IMG/VR virus record: IMGVR_UViG_3300021389_000081
Span: 1-33,826 of that record
Origin: a virus
DNA length: 33,826 bases
Reading direction: 5' to 3' (one strand)
Part shown: in pieces, positions 13,526 through 27,533 of the stretch
Layout of the letters: every line of letters begins with the position of its first letter
How positions within the stretch are numbered: position 1 is the first letter of the stretch
Translations under genes and position numbers: made by a program
The notes under the pieces: model-generated
Told to the model about the DNA's origin: nothing
Seen by the model: the letters and a program-made list of their open reading frames with translations, nothing else
Database searches by the model: none

Positions 13526-13672
13526 ATGGCCAAGTACAGTCGTCACGATAGTAGAAACAAGAAACGTAATAAACATAAACAGATGACCTTGAATGGGAAC
13601 TCTGATACACGAAAAGTGAGAGATAATGAAAAACGCGATTTTTCAATACATGATCGTCAACGACAAGGTTGA
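13526..13672 (+). CDS. Small very basic protein overlapping the next gene
   Basis: 48 residues (MAKYSRHDSRNKKRNKHKQM opening), about one third Arg/Lys/His. It starts 10 bases after the endolysin stop and runs 47 bases into the glycosyltransferase gene in another frame. Its opening looks like small basic proteins of T4-like phages, but the overlapping end may be accidental. A nucleic-acid-binding role is inferred from charge only. Confidence 0.55.
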   Translation: MAKYSRHDSRNKKRNKHKQMTLNGNSDTRKVRDNEKRDFSIHDRQRQG

Positions 13673-14450
13673 TGAACGTGGTGATATCGAAGGTAGAAAG
13701 AGAAGTCAAGTGTATCGAGAGTGTGCGGATATATCTCGCAATTCATTCTTACAGTACGCAGATCACGTAGATGCGGATTATCACTATTCCGATGAAGCGG
13801 TGTATTGTAAGGACGATCATTCAACCGGAATATTGTTTGAATGTTTACGTGTAATCTATGACCCGATGTTCGACCAGTACGACAAGGTACTCTTTGCTGA
13901 TACTGATATAGTAGTAAACACCGATGAAAACATCTTCGACATCTGTGAAGACGGAGATGTTTTCGGTGTACTTGAGAGTGATATCGTCACCGCTGATGGT
14001 GGTGGATATAACTCTTGGGATTATAAACAAAGTACCTATCTCGACTTTGTAAACAAGTTCCAGATGCACGGCATTCCGGTCGTGCCTTCTATGCCACCTA
14101 GCAGACCATCCAAAATAACCATACTGAATACCGGTGTGGTTGTATGGACACGCGAGGCACGTCTACGTGCACGTGAGTTGTTTATGCCTTGGAAAGAATG
14201 GTTCTACGCTAAACCCGAATTCCATATGTCTGTAATGAATGATCAACCATACATCTCTGGTCAGTTGATGCAACATGAATTTGATCTGGTCACCATAGAC
14301 CAGACATGGAATGATTCCCCCCACTACGCTACCGAAGAAGAGTTCTTCGAGAAGGCGAAGTTCTGTCACTATACTGGCGGAGGATGGAAGATCCTCATGC
14401 TAGACCACTATCACTCAAACAAATTCCGACTATCACCAAAACAAATGTAA
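13626..14450 (+). CDS. Glycosyltransferase, GT-A fold (GT8-like)
   Basis: 274 residues. YDKVLFADTDIVVNTDENIFD carries a DxD motif (Asp92 and Asp94) that binds metal and nucleotide sugar. ITILNTGVVVW, a NDQPYISG segment and the closing HYTGGGWK are the acceptor-side motifs of GT8-type enzymes. It should be a retaining hexosyl- or glucuronosyl-type transferase; donor and acceptor are unknown. GAGAGATA lies before the ATG. It follows the endolysin and precedes a block of early genes, apart from the main run of transferases that begins near 18161. Confidence 0.88.
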   Translation: MKNAIFQYMIVNDKVDERGDIEGRKRSQVYRECADISRNSFLQYADHVDADYHYSDEAVYCKDDHSTGILFECLRVIYDPMFDQYDKVLFADTDIVVNTDENIFDICEDGDVFGVLESDIVTADGGGYNSWDYKQSTYLDFVNKFQMHGIPVVPSMPPSRPSKITILNTGVVVWTREARLRARELFMPWKEWFYAKPEFHMSVMNDQPYISGQLMQHEFDLVTIDQTWNDSPHYATEEEFFEKAKFCHYTGGGWKILMLDHYHSNKFRLSPKQM

Positions 14451-14518: not shown

Positions 14519-14713
14519 ATGAAAGACAGAATATTCAACTATGCCCAAACCGAAGATACTAATGTGTTCTACTACAATCGCGTTGCTGACAAGTTCACTA
14601 CCAAGATTGATTGGTATGATAAAGATGACGTTGATATGATAGTTGTTGATGCGACTAATACCACACAAGAGACTGACAACATATTCTCTTTCATCTACCA
14701 GACAGCACCTTGA
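14519..14713 (+). CDS. Small unknown early-type protein
   Basis: 64 residues, acidic (DWYDKDDVDMIVVDATN). A GTG at 14510 is in frame, but AGAGG is correctly spaced for the ATG at 14519. The only gene between two strong promoters, with its TGA stop lying inside the -35 hexamer of the second. No domain recognised. Confidence 0.78.
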   Translation: MKDRIFNYAQTEDTNVFYYNRVADKFTTKIDWYDKDDVDMIVVDATNTTQETDNIFSFIYQTAP

Positions 14714-14738
14714 CATGTGTTTCAAAAAGAAGTATAAT
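14710..14738 (+). promoter_or_regulatory. Consensus sigma70 promoter
   Basis: TTGACA at 14710-14715, 17-base spacer, TATAAT at 14733-14738: perfect consensus. The leader 14743-14774 is nearly identical (2 differences in 32) to the leader at 9869-9900. Confidence 0.9.
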
Positions 14739-14966: not shown

Positions 14967-15172
14967 TGGCAATATTTGATTACTGGCATGATAACCCACC
15001 ACCACCGTTTAATCCTGATTACAAACCACATGCTATAAAAATTAGTAATGAAACTACGAAGTATATGGAAAGTCGAGGATATTATGACGGCGGATATACA
15101 CGAAAAGAACTTGCCAAGATACGTGAACAAGTGTATGATAAGTTAATGAAAGAATATGAGGAAAAAATGTAG
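14966..15172 (+). CDS. Small unknown protein
   Basis: 68 residues. Aromatic and proline-rich start (FDYWHDNPPPPFNPDYKP) and a charged helical end (KELAKIREQVYDKLMKEYEEKM). Translationally coupled to the preceding gene (TAATG). No domain recognised; it shares a transcript with the HAD-fold phosphatase gene that begins one base after its stop. Confidence 0.8.
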   Translation: MAIFDYWHDNPPPPFNPDYKPHAIKISNETTKYMESRGYYDGGYTRKELAKIREQVYDKLMKEYEEKM

Positions 15173-15173
15173 T

Positions 15174-15755
15174 ATGAATAAAGAAAATGTAATTTTGACT
15201 GATATTGATGGTGTTGTTCTGAACTGGGAATATGCCTTTGGTGTTTGGATGAACGAACACGGTCACAAGTTAGTTGACCCAACAAACCCAGTCTATGATG
15301 TCAGTGAAGCCTATGGTATTGACAAGGCGACTGGTAAGATGTTAGTTCGTATGTTTAACGAGAGTGCCCATATCGGGTTCCTTCCCCCACTACGTGATTC
15401 TATGTACTACATGAAGAAACTGCATGAAGAACATGGTTATGTGTTCCATGCGATTACTAGTCTGAGTGACAATCCTAATGCACAGAAGTTGCGTATCCTA
15501 AACCTCCAGAAGTTGTTCGGTGAGACTTTGTTTGAGAAGTTCATTATCCTTGGTTGTGGTGATGACAAAGACGAAGCCTTAGAACCTTACCGTGACACCG
15601 AATGTCTATGGGTAGAAGATAAAGTTGAGAATGCCGAACTAGGTGTTGAACTTGGTCTGGAGAGTGTGTTGATGGCTCACGGGCACAACCGTTACGAGAA
15701 TAAGGTTCCCCGAGTTCAGAACTGGAAAGGCATCTACGAAAAACTGGTTGGTTAA
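15174..15755 (+). CDS. HAD-fold phosphatase, nucleotidase-like
   Basis: 193 residues. Motif I is ILTDIDGVVLNWEYAF (Asp10 and Asp12, counting from 15174), motif II lies at HAITSLSDN, and CLWVEDKVENAELGVELGL is the motif III/IV region with its acidic pair. This fits haloacid-dehalogenase phosphatases of the 5'-nucleotidase type, which could recycle nucleotides or remove phosphates from sugars. The frame also opens at 15156, but that overlaps the previous gene. Last gene before the hairpin at 15765. Confidence 0.85.
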   Translation: MNKENVILTDIDGVVLNWEYAFGVWMNEHGHKLVDPTNPVYDVSEAYGIDKATGKMLVRMFNESAHIGFLPPLRDSMYYMKKLHEEHGYVFHAITSLSDNPNAQKLRILNLQKLFGETLFEKFIILGCGDDKDEALEPYRDTECLWVEDKVENAELGVELGLESVLMAHGHNRYENKVPRVQNWKGIYEKLVG

Positions 15756-15796: not shown

Positions 15797-17293
15797 ATGC
15801 GTTACGTTGGTTTCAGTGAGTATTATCACGATGCAGCACTATCAATTATAAACAAAGACGGTACTGTGGAGTTCGCTTCACAGGCCGAACGTTTTTCTAA
15901 GAAGAAGAACGACCCTATCATTCCCGAAAGTCTCTGGGAATATGTTAACGACAACGATCATGTATCATTCTATGAAGACTATGCACTTCGAGAAAAATAC
16001 CGAGATACTTATCGAGGTTTAAAGGGCAGAACACTCCAAAGAGATATTTCTACACACGAAGAAATACCAATCGGTGAAAGTCTTGTCTATGACAACTTCC
16101 ACGAACATCACATATCACATTGCGCAACCGCATTCTACACCCGCCCTTGGAAAGACAAAGAAGATACTGTTATGGTGTCTATCGATGGTGCAGGCGAATA
16201 TCAAACTGCGGTCATCTACGACCACAACTTCAACCTAATCAAAGAATGGCATTACCCCAAGTCTATAGGACTAGTCTACACTAGTGCAACAAAAACGTTG
16301 GGTTTACGTCCACTTGAGGACGAGTATGTTGTTATGGGATTGTCATCATACGGCACTGCACCTCCAGAGATGGTACAATGGTTGATTGATTGGTGGGAAG
16401 ATACTCCTGATGTTTCGACTGGAGTAGGTAAAGAGGTTTTGCTAGATCATCCGGATAGTCCGGAGTATGTAGGATTTCAGAGGATGCGAAATAAACTAAT
16501 CGAATTCGCGGAACAGTACGGAGATAAAGATTTCGCAGCCGGTATTCAGAGGTTTGCAGAGTATGGTATTATGCAGATCATGCATATTGCAAAACAACAC
16601 GGAAACAAGTTAGTCTACTCTGGTGGTTGTGCACAGAATGTTGTTGCCAATTCAATGATACACGAACTATTTGATGGTCAAGTGCATATTGCAGTTGCAC
16701 CTACAGACGCAGGATCTAGTCTTGGTACTGCCGCAATGACATGGGCAAAGGAAACGGGAAAGGATCGATTAATTTGGTCGCCCTATTCCGGTTACAACAT
16801 AGATAGAGAGGTAAACGTACAGGAAGTAGTCGATCACCTCTTAGAACACCGTGTGTGCGGTCTGGCTAACGGTAAAGCGGAGTTTGGCCCACGTGCACTA
16901 GGTAACAGGTCTTTGATCGCAGATGTGAGGTATGACGTAAAGGATACGGTGAATGGTATCAAACGTAGACAGAAGTACCGACCATTCGCACCCGCAATCC
17001 TAGAGGAACATGCACACGAGTACTTCGAAGGGCCTATGAATGAGTACATGCAATACACCTCTATAGCAAAACATCCTTATACGTCAGTCACTCATGTAGA
17101 TGGTACTGCTCGTGTTCAGATAGTAAAGAAAGATTGTCCGTCTATATTCCGTAAGATTATCGAAGAATATTACGCAAGGACGGGCGTTCCGATGTTACTA
17201 AATACCTCATTGAACATCCGCGGCCGTCCGATCGTCAACGATGAACATGACGCAGAATTGTGGGAACAAAAGTACGGAGTGAAGGTTTTTTAA
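15797..17293 (+). CDS. O-carbamoyltransferase (NodU/CmcH/TobZ family)
   Basis: 498 residues. N-terminal Kae1-like domain: HDAALSII (11-18), AERFSKKKND, HHISHCATAFY (104-114), VSIDGAGEY, and EDEYVVMGLSSYG. Then LVYSGGCAQNVVANSMI and PTDAGSSLGTA. The C-terminal YrdC-like part follows EFGPRALGNRSL (about 361-372), with YRPFAPAIL, TARVQIV and PMLLNTSLNIRGRPIVNDEHDAE. All family signatures are present. It uses carbamoyl phosphate and ATP to carbamoylate a hydroxyl group, usually on a sugar. It opens the long glycan-type run and overlaps the next gene (TAATG). The leader hairpin suggests translational control. Confidence 0.95.
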   Translation: MRYVGFSEYYHDAALSIINKDGTVEFASQAERFSKKKNDPIIPESLWEYVNDNDHVSFYEDYALREKYRDTYRGLKGRTLQRDISTHEEIPIGESLVYDNFHEHHISHCATAFYTRPWKDKEDTVMVSIDGAGEYQTAVIYDHNFNLIKEWHYPKSIGLVYTSATKTLGLRPLEDEYVVMGLSSYGTAPPEMVQWLIDWWEDTPDVSTGVGKEVLLDHPDSPEYVGFQRMRNKLIEFAEQYGDKDFAAGIQRFAEYGIMQIMHIAKQHGNKLVYSGGCAQNVVANSMIHELFDGQVHIAVAPTDAGSSLGTAAMTWAKETGKDRLIWSPYSGYNIDREVNVQEVVDHLLEHRVCGLANGKAEFGPRALGNRSLIADVRYDVKDTVNGIKRRQKYRPFAPAILEEHAHEYFEGPMNEYMQYTSIAKHPYTSVTHVDGTARVQIVKKDCPSIFRKIIEEYYARTGVPMLLNTSLNIRGRPIVNDEHDAELWEQKYGVKVF

Positions 17294-17793
17294 TGCAGTA
17301 CATACGCAAATATAAAATTGATGATTGGGAAAGTGTTCAGGACAAGATATTACTTGCTATCGAAATGATAAAAGATAACAACGTATGTGAATATGCTAAC
17401 ATGTCTCATTCTGATTACAAGGTTGATGCAAAACCTTTGTATTGGGAAGTATTCGAGAATGCTGTTCGGCCAAGTCTAGAGGAATATATGTCTAGTTGGA
17501 AGTGTACCGACATACGCATAGGTAATATGTGGTTTGCAGAATATAGTGAACATGGTGCAGACTTCAACTGGCACACCCATGAAGGTGCGAACATGTCCGG
17601 TGTCCTTCAAGTAGTATTAGAAGATCCGGAAAACGGAACACAATTATTAGGAACACCAATAGATTTGGAAGAAGGGGATCTTGTAGTATTCCCTTCGATG
17701 TTACCCCATAGAAGTCCTATGATAACCGATAGTAAGAAACTAGTTATCGGTTTTAATTGGGACATACATGGTAGTGAATTGCACGAACATTAA
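17293..17793 (+). CDS. 2-oxoglutarate/Fe(II)-dependent oxygenase
   Basis: 166 residues. FNWHTHEGANMSGVLQVVLED carries the first iron ligand His (94 or 96), and GDLVVFPSMLPHRSPM carries the distal His (139), with KKLVIGFNWDI closing the jelly-roll. The arrangement matches the phage 2OG-FeII_Oxy_5-like group. It should hydroxylate a substrate with O2 and 2-oxoglutarate. The frame opens at 17260, but the TAATG overlap with the carbamoyltransferase sets the start at 17293. Coupled to the carbamoyltransferase, it may create or alter the hydroxyl that is carbamoylated; that link is inference. Confidence 0.85.
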   Translation: MQYIRKYKIDDWESVQDKILLAIEMIKDNNVCEYANMSHSDYKVDAKPLYWEVFENAVRPSLEEYMSSWKCTDIRIGNMWFAEYSEHGADFNWHTHEGANMSGVLQVVLEDPENGTQLLGTPIDLEEGDLVVFPSMLPHRSPMITDSKKLVIGFNWDIHGSELHEH

Positions 17794-17807
17794 ACTAGGA
17801 GAATAAA

Positions 17808-18161
17808 ATGTCAGAAGAAAAAAAGAAGGTACAACTTACCGCAGACAGTGATGGGTTTTTAGCGGGAGCTGATGCGGACGGTGATGGTCACATTACCGAA
17901 CAAGAACTACAGATGCACTTAGAGTTCAAACGAAAGGAACTCGAAGACGCAGATGCTATGCGAGATGCGCAAAGAAACATGGCCTGGTTTGCATTGTTCG
18001 GTATGTTACTCTATCCATTCTCGGTTGTACTCGCATCCTTGATAGGATTAGACCAAGCAGCAAATACGTTAGGTTCTATGGCACCGACATACTTTGTATC
18101 TGTTGCCGCAATTGTTGCAGCGTTCTATGCGAAGGAAGCTGTCGGTAACAAGAATAAGTAA
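17808..18161 (+). CDS. EF-hand two-span membrane protein, holin candidate
   Basis: 117 residues. Residues 22-33 (DADGDGHITEQE) are a canonical calcium-binding EF-hand loop, with Asp at 1, 3, 5, Gly at 6, Ile at 8 and Glu at 12. A charged helix follows (LEFKRKELEDADAMRDAQ). Two hydrophobic helices lie at about 59-79 and 92-108, with a short loop between and a basic tail. TAGGAG precedes the ATG. Small two-span proteins with charged ends are typical class II holins, and no other holin is evident in the window. A calcium-sensing holin or membrane regulator is inferred, not shown. Confidence 0.85.
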   Translation: MSEEKKKVQLTADSDGFLAGADADGDGHITEQELQMHLEFKRKELEDADAMRDAQRNMAWFALFGMLLYPFSVVLASLIGLDQAANTLGSMAPTYFVSVAAIVAAFYAKEAVGNKNK

Positions 18162-19051
18162 TGGAACTTATTACTTGGCGAGGTACGCCAGGAGTTGGTG
18201 ATTTCATGTGGGCACTTAATTGTGCCCATAACTTTTCTTATACCGAAAACAAAAAGGTCACTTTAGAGTTTCATTGGGAACATGAAGAAGACCATCTACA
18301 CCACTTCGAAGATCCAGAAACAATCATAGAGAGACTAGAGTACATCCATAACTTCTATCATAGAAAGGATGATGTGACGGTCATACACGTGTATAATGAA
18401 CAGACACGTTACAGTGATTGGAGATATAACGATGATGTTACCAGAGAGGACGATGGTAGTCTCAGAGTCATGGCCATAAGCCGACCCAAGAAGAATAGGT
18501 TTTGGTTTCAGAGTGGAAAGTATTCGGATGAGGTAGGAGGAGATATCCCCAACAGTGATTGGATATTCCGGAAGGATGCATTCCGAAAAGTTGACAATAA
18601 TAAGATTGTTATATGGAGACCGCTGTTTAATGCAGAAACTCCAAAAACATGGAAAAGACAGTTGACAAATGACAAATGGGATGTTATAATAAATCAGTTG
18701 GTTGCGGCGGGATTACATATAACAGAATTGACCTATAGAACTCCTGTTTCCGAAGCACTCTATCATATCTCTACGTGTCGTCAAGTCATATGTTATGATG
18801 GTATGTGGCATTACATTGCTCGTAACTTATATAGACCTACGATAGTTATAAGTAATGAGGGTATAACACGTTATCATACGCCTCATTGTGTACGAACTAC
18901 ACACGATGAAAATGAAGAAATGAGTATATTTTGGTGGGTGAATAATATCCCCGAGATGTTAGGTAGCACCAAGAGAAAAGCAATAGAACATGAAACTAAA
19001 GCGAGAGGATTTTTCAGTGAAAGAAATAAACATAGACAGAGCAGTAATTGA
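18161..19051 (+). CDS. Probable glycosyltransferase, GT-B/GT9-like
   Basis: 296 residues. It opens with ITWRGTPGVGDFMWALNCA, the Gly-rich loop of ADP-heptose/GT9-type transferases, which often read GxGDxxxALxxA. Near the end, QVICYDGMWHYIARNLYRPTIVIS resembles the donor-binding D-x-x-x-x-H-x-A segment of the same group. These two signatures support a GT-B fold that transfers a sugar to a lipopolysaccharide-like acceptor. The middle is divergent, so the call is moderate. The start overlaps the preceding stop (TAATG) and the radical SAM gene begins inside its end. Confidence 0.65.
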   Translation: MELITWRGTPGVGDFMWALNCAHNFSYTENKKVTLEFHWEHEEDHLHHFEDPETIIERLEYIHNFYHRKDDVTVIHVYNEQTRYSDWRYNDDVTREDDGSLRVMAISRPKKNRFWFQSGKYSDEVGGDIPNSDWIFRKDAFRKVDNNKIVIWRPLFNAETPKTWKRQLTNDKWDVIINQLVAAGLHITELTYRTPVSEALYHISTCRQVICYDGMWHYIARNLYRPTIVISNEGITRYHTPHCVRTTHDENEEMSIFWWVNNIPEMLGSTKRKAIEHETKARGFFSERNKHRQSSN

Positions 19052-19997
19052 AGTACAGGGTGGCTGTAATTTTGATTGCACAATGTGTCCTCAAGATAAA
19101 CGTACCGGAGGTAGACACAAAGGTTTCTTAACCAAGATGTCACTGATCGAGTTCGAAGATAATGTTCAAGACTGTGCACGACATGGACTGAATGTTGTCA
19201 ACCTAGATGGTTCGGGTGAAGCAACCATGAATCGTAACCTACCAGAATATATAAAAATCGTTAAGAGGTATGATGCAAAAGCAGTCATCTTCTCTAATGG
19301 TTTTCGTATGCATGGTCAATTCATGAAGGACTGTGTGGACGCAGGATTGGACTTCTTCCGATTCTCTTTCGTTGGTTCTACACCAGAGAAGTATCAAGAG
19401 TGGATGAATAACACTCGGGGTAGCACTTATGAGTTGATAAAGAAACATGTAAAAGAAATGATGGACTATGTAAAAGAGTCTGGATCTGATTGTGTTGTGG
19501 AGACATACCACTTGATCACAGACAATGATAATATTGAACAAGAACTAGAACAGTACAAGGCCTTAGTAGAAGAACTTGGTTGTAAGACCGAGATCTGGAA
19601 AATGCACAACTGGTCTGGTGCATATGATATAGGTGAAACAAATGCTAGAACTGGTAATGTCAAAACTTGTGGTCGTCCTTTTTCTCCTGACGTTGTTATC
19701 CGTGCTGGTGGGGTGGATGGTCATCGGGGTGCAGTTCATCCGTGTTGTCAAGTACTTGGTCGGGATGAAGAAGCAGTTCTCGGACATACATCCGTCAATA
19801 CGATAGAAGAAATTATTCGAGGTGAAGAGTACTCTGCATTACGCGAGTCTCATAGAACTGGAGAATACACGGATTATTGTAGAGATTGTGATTTTCTACT
19901 TGACACTCCGGAGACATTGGTGTATACTAATAACTCAAGATCAGAAATGAAAATGATTGGAACTTCTTTCGATCTTAATGATTATAGGAACGTTTAG
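18990..19997 (+). CDS. Radical SAM enzyme with SPASM-type C-terminus
   Basis: 335 residues from the ATG at 18990. The radical SAM cluster motif CNFDCTMC (Cys26, Cys30, Cys33) binds the 4Fe-4S cluster that cleaves S-adenosylmethionine. NLDGSGEATMN matches the GGE-type SAM site. The C-terminal part has further cysteines (KTCGRPF, VHPCCQV, YCRDCDF), which fits a SPASM domain holding auxiliary clusters. SPASM enzymes modify peptides or sugars. A GTG at 19017 with GAGAGG eight bases upstream is an equally good start and would reduce the 62-base overlap with the previous gene. Substrate unknown; neighbours suggest a sugar. Confidence 0.9.
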   Translation: MKLKREDFSVKEINIDRAVIEVQGGCNFDCTMCPQDKRTGGRHKGFLTKMSLIEFEDNVQDCARHGLNVVNLDGSGEATMNRNLPEYIKIVKRYDAKAVIFSNGFRMHGQFMKDCVDAGLDFFRFSFVGSTPEKYQEWMNNTRGSTYELIKKHVKEMMDYVKESGSDCVVETYHLITDNDNIEQELEQYKALVEELGCKTEIWKMHNWSGAYDIGETNARTGNVKTCGRPFSPDVVIRAGGVDGHRGAVHPCCQVLGRDEEAVLGHTSVNTIEEIIRGEEYSALRESHRTGEYTDYCRDCDFLLDTPETLVYTNNSRSEMKMIGTSFDLNDYRNV

Positions 19998-19998
19998 T

Positions 19999-20595
19999 TT
20001 GAATGACTCTAAACCACCGGTGTGGATGATCGTGATGAGTGGGAATCCCATCTCCGATTACTATAGAAAACTTGCATTACCTTCTTGGTTGAAAGCTGGG
20101 TTCGATGTTAATTTTTTCGAAGGTGTTACACCCGAGACTTACAAAGATCATTTTGATTTGCTCTTTGGCAACAAACATAGTAAAAGCACTCCGGATGGTG
20201 TAATGTTCACTGTCTCTGAAAAGTGTGTGTGGTACGGTCATTACTATCTTTGGAAAAAATGTATTGATACTGACACTCCTATGATAGTGTGTGAACATGA
20301 TATTGAATTGGTTATGGATATTCAACCTTCAATATTCACTACACCTATGGCGTGTTTGGCTCACGATCCTCCGGACATACACAAAGAGAAACGTACATCT
20401 CTTGCGGGTGGTGCATATTATATAACACCAGATGTTGCAAAGGTGTTAATAAGAATAAGCGAGGATCGTATTAGACTCAACTCTGATGGTTGGATCTGGG
20501 AAGTGTGTAAGGAACATGGATACTTTCATTATGACAAGTGTTCGCATATAAAAGATTATTCTGTCGGATTTACGACCAAACATAACAAGAGTTAA
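19999..20595 (+). CDS. Glycosyltransferase, GT25-like
   Basis: About 198 residues from a TTG at 19999 (AGGA lies 9 bases upstream); the frame is open from 19957, and an ATG at 20026 is the other choice. WMIVMSGNPISDYY is the first strand, and TPMIVCEHDIELVMDI corresponds to the acidic D-x-D-like site of GT25 (LPS biosynthesis) transferases. AGGAYYITPDVAKVL is the conserved acceptor-side segment (G-A-x-Y-x-I-x-P). It is a relative of the products at 22141 and 23130, so the run contains at least three GT25-like genes. Donor and acceptor are unknown. Confidence 0.78.
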   Translation: MNDSKPPVWMIVMSGNPISDYYRKLALPSWLKAGFDVNFFEGVTPETYKDHFDLLFGNKHSKSTPDGVMFTVSEKCVWYGHYYLWKKCIDTDTPMIVCEHDIELVMDIQPSIFTTPMACLAHDPPDIHKEKRTSLAGGAYYITPDVAKVLIRISEDRIRLNSDGWIWEVCKEHGYFHYDKCSHIKDYSVGFTTKHNKS

Positions 20596-20598
20596 ACA

Positions 20599-20787
20599 AT
20601 GTATAACATAACATTCAAACACTATCGTACTGGCGTTGAACTCACCTTGACTGGGTACCCAATGGACGACTATAATAAACGCAAAGATTCTGAGATGTTC
20701 ATATTCTATGATACTCTCAATGAACGAATCGAAGCCATTATAAGGTCATCCATTGTGTCCATGTTGGCATATGAGGATGAGTTGTGA
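20599..20787 (+). CDS. Small unknown protein
   Basis: 62 residues. A short beta hairpin opening (MYNITFKHYRTGVELTLTGY) is followed by a helix (LNERIEAIIRSSIVSMLAYEDEL). Its stop overlaps the GTG start of the next gene (GTGA). No function recognised. Confidence 0.72.
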   Translation: MYNITFKHYRTGVELTLTGYPMDDYNKRKDSEMFIFYDTLNERIEAIIRSSIVSMLAYEDEL

Positions 20788-21578
20788 AAAGACTGATATA
20801 TCAGGTTTGTCTGGGAAAACAGATAGATTCTAAGTTGTATGCGAAATGTATCGAAAGTGTTTCTAATTATTGCCAAAAGCATGATATTGTACATTATACG
20901 CAACAAATTCCCAAGTTAAAAATTAAACCCGATCCGTTCACAAGTAACCGTAGTACCGAGAGTTGGCAGAAACACGGTGGGTTCTTACCTATCTATGAGA
21001 AAGAGAATGCGTTTGATCTGTTAGACGAATACGATCAGATTGCAATCATCGATGCAGACATTTATATTCGTGAAGACGCTGAGAATATCTTTGACAATAT
21101 GTTAGACGATTATGCGTTTGGTTGTGTGTTTGAACGTGAGATGCCTATCACCGCTAAGTATGCAGAGAAAATCAAAAACTACTCTCGTATGCAGTACGAA
21201 CAATTACAGAACTATAATCGTACACAATTTAACCCTAATCATCTGGGTTATGAGTTTGCCAACATGGGTATGATTGTGTTAAACTGTAAGAACTTCAAAC
21301 CGTACTTGCAAGGTCAGACCGCAAAAGAGTTTCTGACTCGGATGGAGTTCAAAGACTTTGTTGATGGTATAGGCCCTTGGAAGTGGTCAACAGACCAAAC
21401 TTTGTTGAACTACTTTCTGAAGAAGTATGATGTACCAACTCAATCATTACACTGGAAGTGGAATGGACTGTATGGTGCAAACACTAAGATCGAAGAGTGT
21501 TCCTTCATACACTTCTTCCTGAAAGACTTGTTACCAAATCAAGGGGAGAATGTGGAGGAGTTGATGAAGAAGATATGA
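20784..21578 (+). CDS. Glycosyltransferase, GT-A fold, GTG start
   Basis: 264 residues, beginning with a GTG that overlaps the upstream stop; GAGGATGAG is the ribosome-binding site. YDQIAIIDADIYIREDAENIFD carries the DxD (Asp90, Asp92), NMGMIVLNC and STDQTLLNYFL follow, and FIHFFL closes the domain. The layout matches the GT8-like enzyme at 13626, although the two are well diverged. It should use a nucleotide-sugar donor with a metal ion. The next gene, a methyltransferase, overlaps its stop. Confidence 0.85.
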   Translation: MKRLIYQVCLGKQIDSKLYAKCIESVSNYCQKHDIVHYTQQIPKLKIKPDPFTSNRSTESWQKHGGFLPIYEKENAFDLLDEYDQIAIIDADIYIREDAENIFDNMLDDYAFGCVFEREMPITAKYAEKIKNYSRMQYEQLQNYNRTQFNPNHLGYEFANMGMIVLNCKNFKPYLQGQTAKEFLTRMEFKDFVDGIGPWKWSTDQTLLNYFLKKYDVPTQSLHWKWNGLYGANTKIEECSFIHFFLKDLLPNQGENVEELMKKI

Positions 21579-22144
21579 AGTTGTATGATTATGAAAATTA
21601 CGAAGAGTATCGAAAACTACAGATAGCAGCGAACAAACAAAAGTTACATGCTGTCTGGTGTAGTGAAAGTACTGTTGAAAAGGTGTGCGAGATGCACCCC
21701 AACAGTAAGAATATATTGTGTCACGGTGCACGTAATGGTAGAGAAGTTGAATGGTTTATTAAGTATTTCCCTGATGCGACTGTGACAGGAACCGATATAT
21801 CTCCGACAGCGAATGAATTTTCTAATATGTTTGAGTGGGATTTTCATGACAGAAAGGAAGAGTGGGTTGGTAAGTTTGATCTATTGTACTCTAACTCATT
21901 CGATCATTCTTACTATCCAGAAAAGTGTTTGAAGACATGGACAGATCAACTGACCGAGGAAGGTATTCTTTGTGTGGAGTTGATGGTTGGGGACAACAAT
22001 GTTTCATCTCGCATGGATCCCCTACAGATAAGTAAAGGCGAGTTTCTGGGGATTATAGATGACTTAGGATTCGAAGAGGTTGTCGCCTTCAACGTGACAG
22101 CTAAACATGGTTCAAGTAGAGTAGTGGTGTGTAAAAGAAAATGA
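21575..22144 (+). CDS. Class I SAM-dependent methyltransferase
   Basis: 189 residues. The frame opens at 21497, but the ATGA overlap sets the start at 21575. Motif I is NILCHGARNGREVEWF (about 45-60), motif II VTGTDISPTA, motif IV FDLLYSNSFDHSYYP, and post-motif TEEGILCVELM, all as in class I enzymes. The variant CHGARNG in place of the usual Gly-rich loop with D/E is acceptable in phage and sugar methyltransferases. Probable role: methylating a sugar or its carrier in the same pathway. Coupled by ATGA to genes on both sides. Confidence 0.85.
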   Translation: MKLYDYENYEEYRKLQIAANKQKLHAVWCSESTVEKVCEMHPNSKNILCHGARNGREVEWFIKYFPDATVTGTDISPTANEFSNMFEWDFHDRKEEWVGKFDLLYSNSFDHSYYPEKCLKTWTDQLTEEGILCVELMVGDNNVSSRMDPLQISKGEFLGIIDDLGFEEVVAFNVTAKHGSSRVVVCKRK

Positions 22145-22854
22145 TTAAAGCATATGTGATAAGAATTGATGGACAAGAGAAGTCAGTTGAGAGGTTGTCT
22201 GAGAGTATCGTCAAGACCGAAAGTGATATCGATCTGAACATCTTCGAGGGAACTGTACCGAAGACGATACAGTCTCACCTAGAACGAGAGTTCACGTCTT
22301 TCGATACTTCTAACTATAGATGGAACTGGCCCAAAGATCCTTCGGAAAACCACATGGATTTGCGGACTGGTATAATGAAGACTGCGTATCTCGCATCGAA
22401 TCAAGAGAAAAAAGAGGCATGTTCGATCAGTCATATGCGTCTATGGGATCTATGTCTGACTATCAACGAACCTATAATTATATTTGAATCGGATGCCCTC
22501 ATGACTCGAAAGTTTGATGTCAGTGACGTGGAAGGATATAAACTGGTTGGGTTGAATGATCCTAGAGGTGCGACAAGACGAGCAGGATTGTTTCACCAGA
22601 TCGTTGCTTCTACACCAGATGTCCAACCCGCACCACGTATTAATGATCTAGGCGAGATGTCTCCCCAAGGTATTGCAGGTAACAGTGCATACTATATAGA
22701 ACCAGATGGCGCATCTATGTTACTTGAGAAGGTCAAGGAATATGGAATGTGGCCCAACGATGCGTATATGTGTCGTGAATTATTTCCTTGGATACGAGTG
22801 GTGTATCCATATTATACTAAGGTGCAGGGAACTGTATCTACAACAACAAGGTGA
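22141..22854 (+). CDS. Glycosyltransferase, GT25-like
   Basis: 237 residues. KAYVIRIDGQEKSVERL is the first strand and loop; KEACSISHMRLWDLCL and PIIIFESDALMTRKF are the A-C-x-x-S-H-x-x-x-W and E-S-D-A motifs of GT25 (LPS-type) glycosyltransferases. GIAGNSAYYIEPDGASMLLE is the acceptor-side segment. It is a paralogue-like relative of the genes at 19999 and 23130. Coupled to the methyltransferase by ATGA. Sugar and acceptor unknown. Confidence 0.85.
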   Translation: MIKAYVIRIDGQEKSVERLSESIVKTESDIDLNIFEGTVPKTIQSHLEREFTSFDTSNYRWNWPKDPSENHMDLRTGIMKTAYLASNQEKKEACSISHMRLWDLCLTINEPIIIFESDALMTRKFDVSDVEGYKLVGLNDPRGATRRAGLFHQIVASTPDVQPAPRINDLGEMSPQGIAGNSAYYIEPDGASMLLEKVKEYGMWPNDAYMCRELFPWIRVVYPYYTKVQGTVSTTTR

Positions 22855-22859
22855 TTTGA

Positions 22860-23129
22860 ATGAAAGTTTTACACGATAATGTTTTATTGACAGAAGATGA
22901 TGCAAAAGAAACAACTACTGCCGGTGGACTGATTCTTTCCGCAGATATTACGACAGGTAATAAACCTGCTCGTGTTGTTGCGATGGGACTAGAAGTTGCA
23001 AATAAGAAAGAGATTGCAGCAGGTGATAAGGTATATTGTAATTGGTCAGAAGCAATGCCAGTAGAGATTGATGGTAAGAAGATGGCGATTATTAAGTACG
23101 AATTTATCCGGTTGAAAGTGGACGGATAA
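22860..23129 (+). CDS. GroES-like co-chaperonin
   Basis: 89 residues. MKVLHDNVLLTEDD, TAGGLILSADITTGNKPARVVAMG, GDKVYCNWSEAMPVEIDGKKMAIIKYEFI are the signatures of the Cpn10 beta-barrel; residues about 17-32 form the mobile loop that contacts GroEL. T4 and relatives supply their own co-chaperonin (gp31, or CocO in RB49) so that the host GroEL folds the major capsid protein. It lies between two glycosyltransferase genes, which is an odd place. The loop lacks an obvious long insertion like gp31. Role in capsid folding is inferred from the family. Confidence 0.9.
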   Translation: MKVLHDNVLLTEDDAKETTTAGGLILSADITTGNKPARVVAMGLEVANKKEIAAGDKVYCNWSEAMPVEIDGKKMAIIKYEFIRLKVDG

Positions 23130-23783
23130 ATGAAGTCTTTCGTTATTACGATTGAAGACAATCACCTATCCCAACAAGCTGCGGATAGGTGTATTGCAAG
23201 TGCCAAACGATACGGTATCAAAGTTGAGAAGTGGTATGCAGTAACACCTAGACATCCAGACTTCGAGTCTATGGTCAAGGATGCGGGTCTTCAAGTTCAT
23301 ATGTTTCAGGGCGGTTATTCCAAGACCGAGAATGCACTTGCGTGTTTCCTTTCACATATGTCACTATGGAAGTATTCGGCCGAGACCAAACAAGATGTGA
23401 TGATATTAGAACACGATGCAATATTCACTGGTCGTGTTCCGGTATTGTTTGGATTCCATAAGTGTGTCACAATTGGACAACCTAGTTACGGTAAGTTTAA
23501 GACACCGATGACACTAGGTACGTCTCCGTTAGTACAGGCAGATTACTTTAAGGGTGCACACTCTTATATTGTCAGACCTTCTGGTGCAGAAGAGTTTCTA
23601 GAAAAGGTCTCTGACTATTCTCGACCCACAGACATCTATCTCAATATAATGAACTTCCCTTGGTTAGAAGAGTATTACCCATGGCCTGTAGTGGTCGATG
23701 ATTCTTTCAGTACTATTCAGAATCAACAGGGTTGTTTAGCAAAACACAACTATGGAAAAGGGATACACTTGGTAGAAGCATGA
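23130..23783 (+). CDS. Glycosyltransferase, GT25-like
   Basis: 217 residues. KSFVITIEDNHLSQQAADRC opens the fold; ALACFLSHMSLWKYSAETK and DVMILEHDAIFTGRVP are the GT25 motifs (C-x-x-S-H-x-x-x-W and E-H-D-A), and GAHSYIVRPSGAEEFLEK is the acceptor-side segment. Starts directly after the stop of the GroES-like gene and overlaps the next gene (ATGA). It has the cleanest GT25 signature of the three relatives here. Acceptor unknown. Confidence 0.87.
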   Translation: MKSFVITIEDNHLSQQAADRCIASAKRYGIKVEKWYAVTPRHPDFESMVKDAGLQVHMFQGGYSKTENALACFLSHMSLWKYSAETKQDVMILEHDAIFTGRVPVLFGFHKCVTIGQPSYGKFKTPMTLGTSPLVQADYFKGAHSYIVRPSGAEEFLEKVSDYSRPTDIYLNIMNFPWLEEYYPWPVVVDDSFSTIQNQQGCLAKHNYGKGIHLVEA

Positions 23784-24496
23784 TTAACTTAATTACTGTA
23801 TGTACAGATCAATATCCTATGGAGTATGCCCGCAAGTTGATCACTCGATTCAAAGAGTTGAGTGGTTATAAAGTGGAGGCGTGGTGCATCACCGACCGAC
23901 CAGATGAGATTTCGGATATCGCAAATACCATCGAACCACCTTTTGGTGCAGGTAAAGGTTGGTGGAATAAGATGAAAGCATATGACTCATTCTATGATGG
24001 ATATGCTGTCTATCTTGATATCGACACTGTACTAATCAAGAACTTTGATGATGAGATACGAGAGGCAATCCTTGCACTAGAGAGTGAGGTTGTTAAGATC
24101 GCATGTGTATCCGATGCCATTGGTTGGAAAAATAATAAGTTTAGTTCTTCGATGATGGTTCTGAAGAGTGGTAAGATGCAAGAAGTGTATGACATCTTCT
24201 CACTAGAAAGTTGGAGATTGTTTGAATATGATGGGGGTGACCAAGTATGGACGGGTCGTCTGCTCGAAGAGTGGAAACCAGGCGGTTACTCTGAGATCTA
24301 CTATATGGACGAAGAGTTCAATCAAAACCTCAAACTCAATCTGAAATTCCATCTAGGAAGTAAGGTATTGGGTAATTGGATATTCCCTAAATATATCCCA
24401 AGTGGGTGCAAGATTGTAGATTGTGGTGGTAAACCAAAACCACACGAACTAGAATACTTGCCGTATATAAAAGAGGCGTGGCACGATGTTCAGTAA
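23780..24496 (+). CDS. Glycosyltransferase, GT-A fold
   Basis: 238 residues from the ATG at 23780, set by an ATGA overlap; the frame opens earlier at 23732. INLITVCTDQYPMEYARKLI is the first strand, YAVYLDIDTVLIKNFDDEI carries the DxD, and SSSMMVLKSGKM with GGDQVWTGRLLEEW fit the acceptor side. The closing HLGSKVLGNW and PYIKEAWHD resemble phage glycosyltransferases. Sugar and acceptor are not predictable. The i-spanin gene starts inside its last 11 bases, linking sugar transfer and lysis genes on one transcript. Confidence 0.87.
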   Translation: MINLITVCTDQYPMEYARKLITRFKELSGYKVEAWCITDRPDEISDIANTIEPPFGAGKGWWNKMKAYDSFYDGYAVYLDIDTVLIKNFDDEIREAILALESEVVKIACVSDAIGWKNNKFSSSMMVLKSGKMQEVYDIFSLESWRLFEYDGGDQVWTGRLLEEWKPGGYSEIYYMDEEFNQNLKLNLKFHLGSKVLGNWIFPKYIPSGCKIVDCGGKPKPHELEYLPYIKEAWHDVQ

Positions 24497-24881
24497 AATA
24501 TTATTAGGAGTGGTACTTTGTATGGGTATCACGTTTGCAGGATTCTACCAGTTCATACACAAACCTTTGTTGGGTCAAGTTGCACAACAACAGGTACTTC
24601 TTGCGGCACAAGAGTTGCGTGAACAAGAACAAGTAAAGACGATAGAAGCATTGCAGAATAACCTACAGAAGACTTCCGAAGCATTGAATGCGATGTCCTC
24701 TCGTAATGCAGAGATTGAGGCAGAGTCTAAACGATACCTTGCAATCTTTGCACGACATAACCTATCACGACTTGCAGCTGCAAAACCGACTCTGATAGAA
24801 ACAAGAATCAACCGAGGAACTAAAGATGTATTCGACAGTATCGAAAACGACACTGCTGTTATTGATAACACTGATAAGTAG
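24486..24881 (+). CDS. i-spanin (Rz-like inner-membrane lysis protein)
   Basis: 131 residues. An N-terminal hydrophobic anchor (about 4-23: KILLGVVLCMGITFAGFY) is followed by a long Gln/Glu-rich coiled coil (about 30-90: QQQVLLAAQELREQEQ and so on) that would reach across the periplasm. This is the shape of Rz-type i-spanins, which fuse inner and outer membranes in the last step of lysis. The next gene, in another frame and starting inside its end, encodes a lipoprotein, as expected for an o-spanin partner. Sequence alone gives the topology, not the activity. Confidence 0.85.
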   Translation: MFSKILLGVVLCMGITFAGFYQFIHKPLLGQVAQQQVLLAAQELREQEQVKTIEALQNNLQKTSEALNAMSSRNAEIEAESKRYLAIFARHNLSRLAAAKPTLIETRINRGTKDVFDSIENDTAVIDNTDK

Positions 24882-25242
24882 TGGTTGTACAACACTAGGT
24901 AACTGGGGTAAAGTACCAGAACCTATACCAGTAGAGATTAAGACGGTAGAGATAAAAGTTCCTATTATCCATCCCGCAATGCCTAGACAGATTGACCTCA
25001 AAGATCCTCGGTGGTATGTGGTCAGTGACAAGAACATTGACACTTTTCTAGAAGATATTACGAAACGACACGAAGGTCAGTTGGTCTTTATTGCAATGTC
25101 GGTAGGTGATTATGAGTTGATGTCATATAACATGCAGGAACTAAAACGATATATAAATCAACTAAAAGAAGTTGTGATATACTATCGCACTATGAATACA
25201 GATGAACCAGAGGTTGTAGAGAATGAGAAAACAGATAATTGA
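24826..25242 (+). CDS. o-spanin (Rz1-like outer-membrane lipoprotein)
   Basis: 138 residues. A signal peptide (TTLLLLITLISSGC) ends in a lipobox-like SSGC, with the lipidated Cys at 21; Ser at -3 is not the usual Leu, so the site is weaker than average. A Pro/Val/Lys-rich segment follows (KVPEPIPVEIKTVEIKVPII), typical of o-spanins in T4-like phages, then a helical C-terminal domain. It overlaps the i-spanin by 56 bases in a different frame, the arrangement found for Rz/Rz1 pairs. The two would bridge the periplasm and fuse the membranes after the wall is cut. Confidence 0.85.
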   Translation: MYSTVSKTTLLLLITLISSGCTTLGNWGKVPEPIPVEIKTVEIKVPIIHPAMPRQIDLKDPRWYVVSDKNIDTFLEDITKRHEGQLVFIAMSVGDYELMSYNMQELKRYINQLKEVVIYYRTMNTDEPEVVENEKTDN

Positions 25243-25420
25243 GTCGTTGACATCCCATGCGGTGGGTAAGATTAACAAACATAAAATGAACGTGGAAGTT
25301 TACTTGGCCAATCCTACCGGTATTGGTGAACATCCTGATGTGATGGAAGCGATAGAACACGAGTTGAAGATCATTGCGGACTACCATGAACAGTTAGAGA
25401 TTTTGGAGAGGTACTTTTAA
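25223..25420 (+). CDS. Small conserved T4-like phage protein
   Basis: 65 residues, helical (GKINKHKMNVEVYLANPTG and a helix of IEHELKIIADYHEQLEILERYF). I recognise the xxKHKxNVEVYLxNPTGIGEHPDVM pattern as common in marine T4-like phages, without known function. It overlaps the o-spanin by 20 bases and the nuclease gene by TAATG. Confidence 0.88.
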   Translation: MRKQIIESLTSHAVGKINKHKMNVEVYLANPTGIGEHPDVMEAIEHELKIIADYHEQLEILERYF

Positions 25421-25848
25421 TGTATGAATATTCTTGCAAAATTGTTAGAGTTGTTGATGGGGATACTGTGGATATTGATATCGATCTCGGTTTCGGTATT
25501 ATTTATGCTAATCAGCGTATTCGTCTGTATGGTATTGATACTCCCGAATCTCGTACTCGTGACCCTATCGAGAAAAAGTTTGGTAAACTCGCCGCCAGAT
25601 TCCTTGCGGAATCACTGGGAGAAACATGTGTCCTCCGTACAAGACTCGACAGTAAAGGAAAGTACGGCCGAATCCTCGGAGAGTTCCTCGTCTATGACGC
25701 AAAAACCGACCGACAAATGACCGTTAATGAGATTATGATTCGAGACCATCTTGCGGTTGCGTACCACGGACAATCCAAGGATGATATCGAAGATGAACAT
25801 TTGCGTAATCGTAAAATATTAATTGAACAATATGGATTCGAAGCATGA
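25420..25848 (+). CDS. Staphylococcal-type nuclease (thermonuclease family)
   Basis: 142 residues. VVDGDTVDIDID supplies the metal-binding Asp (20 or 22). RIRLYGIDTPES has Arg35, Asp40, Thr41 and Glu43, at the same numbers as the catalytic residues of S. aureus nuclease, and KGKYGR holds Arg84 (Arg87 there). There is no signal peptide, so it should work in the cell. It would hydrolyse DNA or RNA in a calcium-dependent way, perhaps helping host DNA breakdown. Start overlaps the preceding stop (TAATG), and the next gene starts four bases before its end (ATGA). Confidence 0.95.
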   Translation: MYEYSCKIVRVVDGDTVDIDIDLGFGIIYANQRIRLYGIDTPESRTRDPIEKKFGKLAARFLAESLGETCVLRTRLDSKGKYGRILGEFLVYDAKTDRQMTVNEIMIRDHLAVAYHGQSKDDIEDEHLRNRKILIEQYGFEA

Positions 25849-26474
25849 GATGGAATGTCTTAGGTAATGGCGATAATGCCTTTCGGTATGAGAGAGGTAC
25901 GCCGGGTAAACTTCTTATTTGTAATATGCCTCCGTTCGAGATTCCTAACAATGAAGTCTTTGCTACATGTATGGTTGACTATAAGATGATGGTTGCACTT
26001 GCTAATAAACATATCAAGTTGGATATGTACGATTGGATACTGGGTACCCGTCCACGTCACTGGATGGAAATGCAACCACAATTCTATCTGAAGTATGCGC
26101 AGAAGATCAAGGCAATGCACACACATATCCCGTCTTATGCGAAACTACAAGGACAGAACGAAGCACAGGCTGCGACAAATTACTCGTGTGGTCATATGGC
26201 AGTAGACTACGCATGTCGTGTACAGAAGGCGACTGAAGTCCACATCTACGGATTCGACTCGATGTTCGATACAAGTCTCCGTAGTTATACCGACTTGTTA
26301 TTAGAATCAGATCGAAGTTCTCAGAACACACATCGTCTCGCAAATAACTGGAGACCTATTTGGACAAAGATGTTCGAAGAGTTTGACAATACGCAGTTTT
26401 TCCTGTATCATAGTCATAGTAAACTGAAATTCCCTGTAGGGGATAATGTCAAAATAGTTGTGGAGAAAAAATAA
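25845..26474 (+). CDS. Probable glycosyltransferase, GT42/sialyltransferase-like
   Basis: 209 residues. WNVLGNGDNAFRYE resembles the GNG-x-S nucleotide loop of GT42-type sialyltransferases and MptE-like pyrophosphokinases. CNMPPFEIPNNEVFATCMVDY follows the CN-x-F pattern of these enzymes, and SCGHMAVDYACRVQKATEVH ending in IYGFD matches the S-x-G-x-x-x-x-x-x-A-x-x-x-G-x-x-x-I-x-x-x-G-x-D segment. No catalytic activity can be proven from sequence. It closes the transferase run; its stop overlaps the next start (TAATG). Confidence 0.7.
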   Translation: MRWNVLGNGDNAFRYERGTPGKLLICNMPPFEIPNNEVFATCMVDYKMMVALANKHIKLDMYDWILGTRPRHWMEMQPQFYLKYAQKIKAMHTHIPSYAKLQGQNEAQAATNYSCGHMAVDYACRVQKATEVHIYGFDSMFDTSLRSYTDLLLESDRSSQNTHRLANNWRPIWTKMFEEFDNTQFFLYHSHSKLKFPVGDNVKIVVEKK

Positions 26475-26623
26475 TGCCTAGTATAGATGATGTGATAGAA
26501 ATCAGTAAAAAGTTCGGTGAGTTTATAAAGTACACTTGGGTTGATTTTAAAGCTGTTTGGGAGTTCCGACCCAACGTACTTATTTGGTGTGGTATTGCAT
26601 TCTTGATTGCCTGTTTTGTATAA
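26474..26623 (+). CDS. Small C-terminally anchored membrane protein
   Basis: 49 residues: a polar helix (IDDVIEISKKFGEFIKYTW) followed by a hydrophobic end (VLIWCGIAFLIACFV). Its TAA stop lies inside the TATAAATA late promoter at 26619. Coupled to the preceding gene by TAATG. Could be a small lysis or membrane-associated protein; no family recognised. Confidence 0.72.
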   Translation: MPSIDDVIEISKKFGEFIKYTWVDFKAVWEFRPNVLIWCGIAFLIACFV

Positions 26624-26660: not shown

Positions 26661-27533
26661 ATGCAATCTTTTAACACATTCTTAAAAGAAGAAACTTTCC
26701 TCTCAGAAGAATCGGAAGCGTTACTTGAAAAACTCATTACCTTTGGTGGTAAAGCATACCCTAAGTTTGGTAACATTGTTATCATGGCCGGTGGTGCGGG
26801 TTCTGGTAAAGGATTCATTCTGAGTAATCTGGTAGGTATCGAAGGAAAGACTTTCGATGTGGATGAGTTGAAGAAACTTGCATCTAAGACACCTGCTATC
26901 CAGAAACGAGTCATGGATGAACTCGGTGTGGATATTTTTAAATTGTCACAGAACCTAAAAGACCCCGAGAACGTTGGTAAACTTCATGACATCATTGGTA
27001 ACTATCTAAAGACCGATAAGAACAAAGAGAAGTTATTCTATCGTTCTGTGTTGACCGCACCTGTTGATCGTAAACCAAACATCATCTTCGACATGACCTT
27101 CAAGGAATTGTCTAAGTTGGAGAAGGTTGCGAATGATGCGTCTAAGTTGGGTTACGACAAGAAGAACATCCATATCGTATGGGTTGTGAATGATATCGAA
27201 GTTGCGAAGGCACAGAACTTAAAACGTGCACGTGTTGTACCTACCGAGATTCTTGTCAATACTCACCGTGGTGCAGCTAACACTATGGGTGATATCATCA
27301 ACATGGGTAACAAACTCAAGAAGTATATGGATGGGGATATCGTATTCGCATTCAACAAAGTTGGTGTAGATGCGAATCTGGCGAAGTCTGGTAAGGGTGG
27401 TTCATACGTCAAAGACGCAAACTACTTCTATGTCAAGAGAGCAGGTAAGGCACCTACTCCCGTTGACAAATTAGATAAAGAGATTCGTTCTAAGATCGCA
27501 GGTTATGTACCTAAGAACGTAGACTGGAACTAA
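26661..27533 (+). CDS. P-loop (kinase/zeta-like) protein, probably head-packaged
   Basis: 290 residues. The N-terminus MQSFNTFLKEETFLSEE resembles the capsid-targeting leader of T4 internal proteins, with LKE (residues 8-10) and LSE (14-16) as possible gp21 cut sites. A Walker A loop follows at 44-51 (GGAGSGKG), with FDVDELKK (65-72) as the zeta/kinase-type acidic motif, KPNIIFDMTF as a Walker-B-like strand, and an Arg-rich lid (KAQNLKRARVVP). The layout is close to zeta-toxin/kinase P-loop proteins that phosphorylate small substrates. A late promoter drives it. Its stop overlaps the stop of the opposing gene by two bases. If packaged it would be injected into the next host. Confidence 0.85.
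   Translation: MQSFNTFLKEETFLSEESEALLEKLITFGGKAYPKFGNIVIMAGGAGSGKGFILSNLVGIEGKTFDVDELKKLASKTPAIQKRVMDELGVDIFKLSQNLKDPENVGKLHDIIGNYLKTDKNKEKLFYRSVLTAPVDRKPNIIFDMTFKELSKLEKVANDASKLGYDKKNIHIVWVVNDIEVAKAQNLKRARVVPTEILVNTHRGAANTMGDIINMGNKLKKYMDGDIVFAFNKVGVDANLAKSGKGGSYVKDANYFYVKRAGKAPTPVDKLDKEIRSKIAGYVPKNVDWN

Follow-up and report, generated by a model that had tools for sequence, protein, structure and literature searches.

The 33.8-kb virus record IMGVR_UViG_3300021389_000081 (33,826 nucleotides, referred to here in its entirety as the window) contains a run of 18 tightly packed genes at positions 15797-26474, all on the + strand, in which a carbamoyltransferase and a radical SAM enzyme are embedded among glycosyltransferases (GTs). 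We propose, with a confidence just short of even, that this run is an early or middle unit that mainly alters a glycan of the host cell envelope, blocking the adsorption of other phages. Eleven of the 18 genes encode a carbamoyl-, glycosyl- or methyltransferase, an oxygenase or the radical SAM enzyme. Among related viral contigs a core of five genes is conserved and the genes that follow it are exchanged, and a conserved σ70-type promoter motif lies ahead of the module.

The window belongs to a T4-like marine phage, to judge from genes for NrdA/B, PhoH, phage lysozyme and gp32 that were recognised by translation, by profile or by orthology to phage C48C1, a complete 156-kb genome (OQ984149). 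Thirteen of the 17 junctions in the run are overlaps, either TAATG-type of 1 base, ATGA/GTGA-type of 4 bases, or of 11-62 bases, and the other four are gaps of 0, 3, 5 and 14 bases. The coordinates, frames and tight packing reported in an earlier, sequence-only reading of this DNA are thus correct; for radical SAM and for the GT25 at 19957 it is uncertain where the gene starts. In comparison with three relatives, nearly every gene with enough changes has an excess of substitutions at the third codon position (52/27/161 at positions 1/2/3 for the radical SAM gene and 128/82/259 for the carbamoyltransferase gene, both versus L018), and therefore nearly all genes of the run appear to be real. The methyltransferase gene, with 9/1/4 versus L010, has no such excess. 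Scans of the window for tRNA and Rfam families found nothing.

Radical SAM relatives are encoded in 347 viral-contig stretches, of which the best 80 were examined. The counts out of 40 given below refer to loci among these 80 with at least 5.5 kb before and at least 7 kb after the radical SAM gene, each gene being scored by its best label; the contigs come from overlapping samples and some are near-identical, and the counts are accordingly not independent. The core comprises a GT8-like glycosyltransferase with a DTD motif (13626..14450; 38/40), a HAD/NT5C-like phosphatase (15156..15755; 38/40), the carbamoyltransferase (15797..17293; 39/40), a GT9-like glycosyltransferase (18161..19051; 40/40) and the radical SAM/SPASM-type enzyme (18990..19997; 40/40), and so begins upstream of the run as it was originally delimited. 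In 37 of the 40, a carbamoyltransferase of at least 45% identity lies no more than 6 kb ahead of radical SAM. The tail is far less constant: a GT25 of any kind is present in 32 loci, GT25c and GT8 in 29 each, the EF-hand protein in 27, GT25b and the GT42-like protein in 26 each, the nuclease in 25, the GT-A type transferase in 21, GroES in 17, GT25a in 15, the spanins in 13, the oxygenase in 12 and the methyltransferase in 8. The three GT25 labels are not cleanly separable, and counting without best labels slightly raises the figures for GT25b and GT25c. The window and its near twin L010 differ by 4 bases in GT25b and by 163 in GT8, a contrast that suggests local exchange. Twenty representatives were taken from additional gene clusters in the neighbourhood of radical SAM. 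Half of them (10) lack a Pfam match; the others include matches to sulfotransferase, HAD-nucleotidyltransferase fusion, cupin, GATase, methyltransferase, Zeta-toxin-like and GT8 proteins, and to a second radical SAM enzyme. Positions 10063-11466 of L060 and 16475-17191 of L072, downstream of radical SAM, hold the HAD-nucleotidyltransferase fusion and the sulfotransferase.

Of the glycan-type enzymes, the radical SAM protein shows the highest conservation. At loci chosen by the radical SAM gene, median identity to the window is 72% for radical SAM, 64% for the carbamoyltransferase and 46% for the GT9-like protein (48 loci below 80%), and the comparison was repeated on loci chosen by other genes to avoid choice by radical SAM itself. 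At 57 loci chosen by the GT9-like gene, with radical SAM identity below 90%, radical SAM ranked above the GT9-like protein in 56/56, the carbamoyltransferase in 47/48, PhoH in 43/44, the EF-hand protein in 31/45, the lysozyme in 15/30 and NrdB in 0/8; at 26 loci chosen by the GT42-like gene it ranked above the GT9-like protein in 23/23, the EF-hand protein in 6/14 and the lysozyme in 1/7. Radical SAM is thus not the best conserved protein of the whole region, the EF-hand protein and lysozyme being level with it and NrdB higher. A scan of cellular genomes for the radical SAM protein returned two loci, both beside PhoH and other module genes or phage lysozyme. They are L291 and L292, where the module lies in contigs binned to a Sphingobacteriales and a Euryarchaeota metagenome-assembled genome; their neighbours indicate that these are probably binned phage DNA, and they were rejected as cellular relatives.

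The σ70-type promoter ahead of the module, at 14710..14738, matches the motif at 12/12 positions, as does one at 94615 in C48C1, and both stand upstream of small open reading frames (ORFs) that precede the HAD gene. In 19 of the 37 distinct relatives the 120 bases ahead of HAD contain a site with at least 11/12 matches, versus 0.4 in base-shuffled sequence. Inside run genes, sites of 11 or 12 of 12 occur at 18662-18690, 19900-19928 and 20647-20676, and may be internal promoters or chance matches. The exact late motif TATAAATA precedes 5 of the 29 C48C1 genes examined for it (gp13, a tail tube gene, gp48, gp25 and one at 141011). In the window it occurs at 897, 3581, 26619 and 32900, and on the opposite strand at 28672 and 28701; there is none between 3581 and 26619, and hence none in the run. 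Behind the copy at 26619 lies a gene for a Zeta-toxin-like P-loop protein (26661-27533; phrog_5268, 4e-109), and the motif precedes this gene in 8 of 9 distinct relatives.

The enzyme assignments rest on profiles or on predicted folds. The carbamoyltransferase exceeds the Pfam cut-offs for both its N- and its C-terminal domain (PF16861, PF02543; bit scores 153 and 105, cut-offs 27 and 24) and matches phrog_1601, and, among solved structures, novobiocin carbamoyltransferase 9s2t at 7e-44. Its translation contains EHHISHCATAF and EFGPRALGNRS, aligned to 9s2t, and the HHxxH pattern is the metal motif of NodU/TobZ O-carbamoyltransferases; by sequence, then, the 15797 product is an O-carbamoyltransferase of the NodU/TobZ type. 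The two upstream core proteins fall below their profile cut-offs (GT8-like, PF01501, 21.4 bits, cut-off 24.3; HAD, PF06941, 18.4 bits, cut-off 24.8). The GT9-like protein returned only one unrelated weak match in Pfam at E up to 0.1 and none in PHROGs or NCBIfam. Its predicted structure (AF2 pLDDT 89) is closest to WaaC (Z 11.6, 4.0 Å over 207 residues), WaaF (Z 11.3) and TibC (Z 11.1), other GT-B proteins trailing by 1-2 Z, and Foldseek matched the model to TibC at 9.7e-5. The model supports a GT9-like protein of heptosyltransferase fold.

The radical SAM protein exceeds the cut-offs of both the radical SAM family PF04055 (57 bits, cut-off 29.5) and the SPASM family PF13186 (33 bits, cut-off 21.5). 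Its CX3CX2C motif and residues C227, C252, C253, C297 and C300 are invariant in 19 of 19 sequences. Two-cluster SPASM enzymes usually carry more cysteines, and the smaller number in the auxiliary region places this protein nearer the twitch type. None of the 24 NCBIfam matches reached its cut-off; the best, to the tungsten-enzyme maturase TIGR04317, stayed far below it, and the twitch-type model NF033640, matched at 2e-8, was also far short of its own. Solved relatives are weak, the best being tetraether synthase at 3e-4, and the eight solved sequences that matched with E up to 1 do not include BtrN. The likeness to a BtrN-type twitch dehydrogenase consists of an auxiliary-cluster region with few cysteines and the weak twitch-type profile match. 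BtrN oxidises a cyclitol alcohol and the twitch member MoaA cyclises GTP, according to PMC9012708. Oxidation or epimerisation of a sugar by the phage enzyme is a guess from gene context.

The GT9-like and radical SAM genes occur together almost without exception. The GT9-like gene is present in all 80 radical SAM loci, and when loci were newly fetched by the GT9-like gene and then checked for radical SAM behind it, the latter was found in 70 of 74, at a spacing of at most 100 bases in 59 and of 141-668 bases in 11. Of the four exceptions, L249 stops inside the GT9-like gene, L261 has the beginning of radical SAM, L275 stops 26 bases short of the radical SAM start in its 98.8%-identical relative L274, and L273 continues for 749 bases past the GT9-like gene with no match to radical SAM there. 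We regard it as quite unlikely, yet worth stating, that the two act jointly, the first transferring a sugar that the second then rewrites by radical chemistry, through oxidation or epimerisation of the attached sugar, before carbamoylation, yielding a novel sugar in a widespread, mostly uncultured marine T4-like lineage.

Behind the carbamoyltransferase gene follow those for a 2-oxoglutarate (2OG)-Fe(II) oxygenase (17293..17793; phrog_81 5e-18, PF13759 below cut-off), one of the variable genes, and for an EF-hand membrane protein (17808..18161; EF-hand profile below cut-off, two hydrophobic segments seen by eye). Radical SAM is followed by GT25a (19957..20595), a 62-residue ORF without Pfam or PHROGs match (20599..20787), a GT8 with a DAD motif (20784..21578; PF01501 28.4 bits, above the cut-off of 24.3), a class I methyltransferase-like protein (21575..22144; Methyltransf_12 22.7 bits, below the cut-off of 30), GT25b (22141..22854), a GroES-like co-chaperonin outside the glycan set (22860..23129; PF00166, phrog_3188), GT25c (23130..23783) and a GT-A type glycosyltransferase with a DID motif (GTd, 23780..24496; phrog_1962 1e-8, no Pfam match). 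The three GT25 proteins exceed the PF01755 cut-off of 24 (37.7, 45.4 and 45.6 bits), over the first half of the domain only. All three also match the first part of phrog_61, a 2OG-Fe(II) oxygenase family of 689 positions, and fused GT25-oxygenases may, on this evidence, exist in phages. The run ends with the lysis proteins i-spanin Rz (24486..24881; phrog_739) and o-spanin Rz1 in an out-of-frame overlap (24826..25242; phrog_812), a 65-residue ORF 56% identical to C48C1 (25223..25420), an SNase-type nuclease (25420..25848; PF00565, phrog_452) and a putative GT42/Maf-fold protein (25845..26474). The last has no family match in Pfam, PHROGs or NCBIfam and no significant Foldseek match. Its predicted structure (AF2 pLDDT 87) resembles Maf 5mu5 (Z 10.7, 3.7 Å over 168 residues) and CstII (Z 9.2-9.9), and also archaeal HPPK and SteA (Z 8.9), and the protein is probably a glycosyltransferase. 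The sequence-only reading had named the carbamoyltransferase, oxygenase, radical SAM/SPASM enzyme, three GT25 and the methyltransferase, all of which hold by profile, the methyltransferase weakly; it had also named two GT-A transferases, and the profiles give a GT8 and a GT-A type. Its GT9-like and GT42-like guesses gained no profile support and find some in predicted folds, the GT42-like less firmly. It had omitted GroES, both spanins, the nuclease, the EF-hand protein and the ORFs at 20599 and 25223, as well as the two core genes shortly before the run, GT8-like 13626 and HAD 15156.

A collection of 50,697 phage records was searched by tblastn at E 1e-3 (1e-5 for radical SAM). C48C1 is the sole record matched by radical SAM, the GT9-like, the GT42-like and the GT8-like 13626 protein (67% identity for the last), and GT8 20784 matched none. 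The carbamoyltransferase matched 144 records, of which 117 are named Synechococcus phage, Cyanophage or Prochlorococcus phage; identity is 65% to C48C1 and below 60% to the other 143, the 59 of these that were listed being at most 38% identical. The GT8-like, HAD, carbamoyltransferase, GT9-like, radical SAM, nuclease and GT42-like genes are syntenic in C48C1, which differs from the window in that, at E 1e-4, orthologs are missing for the oxygenase, the EF-hand protein, all three GT25, GT8 20784, the methyltransferase, GroES and the spanins. Upstream of the lysozyme and module, C48C1 83637-92443 (L002 17638-26444) encodes a 1480-residue FG-GAP protein, an unmatched protein of 495 residues and a 933-residue cadherin/Ig-like protein; the FG-GAP and cadherin/Ig-like proteins are probably fibres or adhesins. 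C48C1 also has a MauG-like di-haem peroxidase gene and an isocitrate-lyase-family gene (L005 7990-9411 and L003 44175-45416). In the window, NrdA (5385-7367) is apparently fused, by its translation, to a glutaredoxin-like C-terminal domain (CPFC).

The GT8, GT9, GT25 and GT42 classes all include members that act on the core of lipopolysaccharide (LPS) or lipooligosaccharide (LOS). We infer the acceptor, sugars, reaction order, timing and purpose of the module as follows. The target would most simply be the LPS/LOS core oligosaccharide at the cytoplasmic face of the membrane. The GT8-like, GT9-like and GT42-like transferases would add sugars to this acceptor, the radical SAM enzyme would oxidise or epimerise a sugar carbon and the carbamoyltransferase would cap a hydroxyl, while the exchangeable GT25, GT8, methyltransferase and oxygenase genes would diversify the outer decoration. 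The spanins, GroES and nuclease would be fellow passengers with other jobs.

Several observations favour the envelope as target. The closest solved folds of the GT9-like protein include WaaC and WaaF. A constant core with a tail swapped even between near twins resembles serotype variation, an analogy that would suit an envelope glycan. The cargo of sulfotransferase, HAD-nucleotidyltransferase, methyltransferase and GT8 points the same way, as do a sugar-nucleotide epimerase-family gene, present in all four relative records above 140 kb and in 9 of 18 overall, and the UDP-galactopyranose mutase carried by C48C1. So do the σ70-type promoter and the lack of an exact late motif from 3581 to 26619. 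A change of host O-chain is argued for pelagimyophage glycan clusters, in which GT8 is the commonest family, in PMC7029224. Other findings weigh against this interpretation. No envelope glycan can be named, because no host is known, and the sugar-nucleotidyltransferase PF00483 is present in just 2 of the 18 records, full donor pathways not being established. The σ70-like sites of the region total 62 versus 57.7 in shuffles, which is no excess; TATAAATA precedes the carbamoyltransferase gene in 8 of 50 distinct relatives versus 0.6 in shuffled sequence and, in C48C1, at 99833 inside the module; and early promoters are compatible with a virion target.

A close rival, though less likely than not, is that the virion itself is glycosylated, a carbamoylated, radical-SAM-modified glycan being built inside the cell on capsid, tail or fibre proteins. 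Here the folds cut both ways, since TibC and Maf, both ranking high among the fold matches, are protein glycosyltransferases. In C48C1 the module lies only a few genes behind the large FG-GAP and cadherin/Ig-like genes, an arrangement that suits a virion target, speaks against a module remote from structural genes in this phage and shifts a little weight from the envelope to the virion. The head and tail genes annotated in C48C1 are nevertheless more than 10 kb away, save a module-adjacent lysozyme with a baseplate label, no fibre-type gene stands beside the module in the window, as judged by inspecting translations with no profile search, and the module is preceded by a promoter of other than late type. 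By analogy with collagen, the 2OG-oxygenase could supply hydroxy-residues for GT25, to which the possible phage GT25-oxygenase fusions would lend weight. The oxygenase, however, occurs in just 12 of the 40 relatives and lacks an ortholog in C48C1, and a collagen-like substrate was rejected in C48C1, whose ORFs of at least 50 residues contain no (Gxx)7 repeat. Capsid glycosylation has reportedly been suggested for a mycobacteriophage.

Two further explanations carry less weight. The run might be a mixed operon with separate takeover and lysis tasks, in which the product of the GT9-radical SAM pair would be a small molecule or a modified nucleotide sugar. The interleaved GroES, spanin, nuclease, HAD and EF-hand genes would suit this, as would the presence of the oxygenase, methyltransferase, GT25a, GroES and spanins each in fewer than half of the 40 relatives; the recurrence of all five core genes in 38-40 of the 40, and the preponderance of glycan-type enzymes in the run, make it improbable. 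The sequence-only reading had viewed the whole run as one system building an unusual sugar; a glycan-decorating gene set is indeed well supported, but a single system spanning the run is not, because genes for lysis, a chaperone and a nuclease stand among the others and conservation as a unit is confined to part of the set. Hypermodification of DNA, with carbamoyl and sugar groups placed on 5-hydroxymethylpyrimidines, is very unlikely. A metagenomic carbamoyltransferase of the same superfamily modifies 5-hydroxymethylcytosine, yet thymidylate-synthase-type genes accompany the carbamoyltransferases found on modified contigs, and the carbamoyltransferases of unmodified contigs adjoin glycosyltransferases, for example, as PMC8670742 describes. 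In the 18 relative records, mostly fragments and only four exceeding 140 kb, neither PF00303 (thymidylate-synthase-type/dCMP hydroxymethylase; 9 of 14 controls matched) nor PF00145 (C5-methylase; 10 of 14 controls matched) was found, which makes modified DNA an unlikely target. The T4 β-glucosyltransferase family also gave 0/18, an uninformative result since no control matched. A TET/JBP gene in C48C1 would favour DNA as target; it is the only one in the 18 records, with none in the other three above 140 kb, and lies 45 kb from the run. In the stretch C48C1 49583-53030 (L003 49583-L005 3030; L293), this gene (3e-19) stands two genes before that for UDP-galactopyranose mutase, possibly forming a separate DNA-modification locus, although C48C1 yielded neither a C5-cytosine methylase nor a thymidylate-synthase-type gene. 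Of the three targets put forward from the sequence, DNA is thus disfavoured, and between host envelope and virion protein we lean, not strongly, to the envelope.

The run appears to be a further variant of the "LPS" clusters of marine T4-like phages (pelagimyophages, P-SSM2, S-SSM7). GT8-rich transferase sets and radical SAM cassettes are described in pelagimyophages (PMC7029224), and carbamoyltransferases, 2OG-oxygenases and LPS clusters in cyanophages (PMC3037559). The difference lies in the GT9-like, radical SAM, GT42-like and upstream GT8-like proteins, which among the phage records searched match C48C1 alone, and in GT8 20784, which matches none of them. The phage carbamoyltransferase shares its domain make-up with TobZ, GdmN and novobiocin carbamoyltransferase, which are among its best solved relatives and whose substrates are small antibiotics; unlike them, it sits among glycosyltransferases. 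From the 5-hydroxymethylcytosine carbamoyltransferase found by MetaGPA, of the same superfamily, it differs in having no thymidylate-synthase-type partner in the 18 relatives. In the open-licence literature we found no paper on the GT9-radical SAM pair or on the whole gene combination, nor one that describes a glycan as the substrate of a phage radical SAM enzyme.

Marine T4-like phages carry many glycan genes whose function is untested, and "stuffer DNA" is one suggested role (PMC3037559). The small GT9-like and radical SAM core provides a defined target. If the two do work as such a pair, with carbamoylation to follow, the outcome would be a sugar without a known counterpart on phages or bacteria. 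The core is frequent in ocean virus DNA, with 347 radical SAM relatives, and would make the question of envelope versus virion testable.

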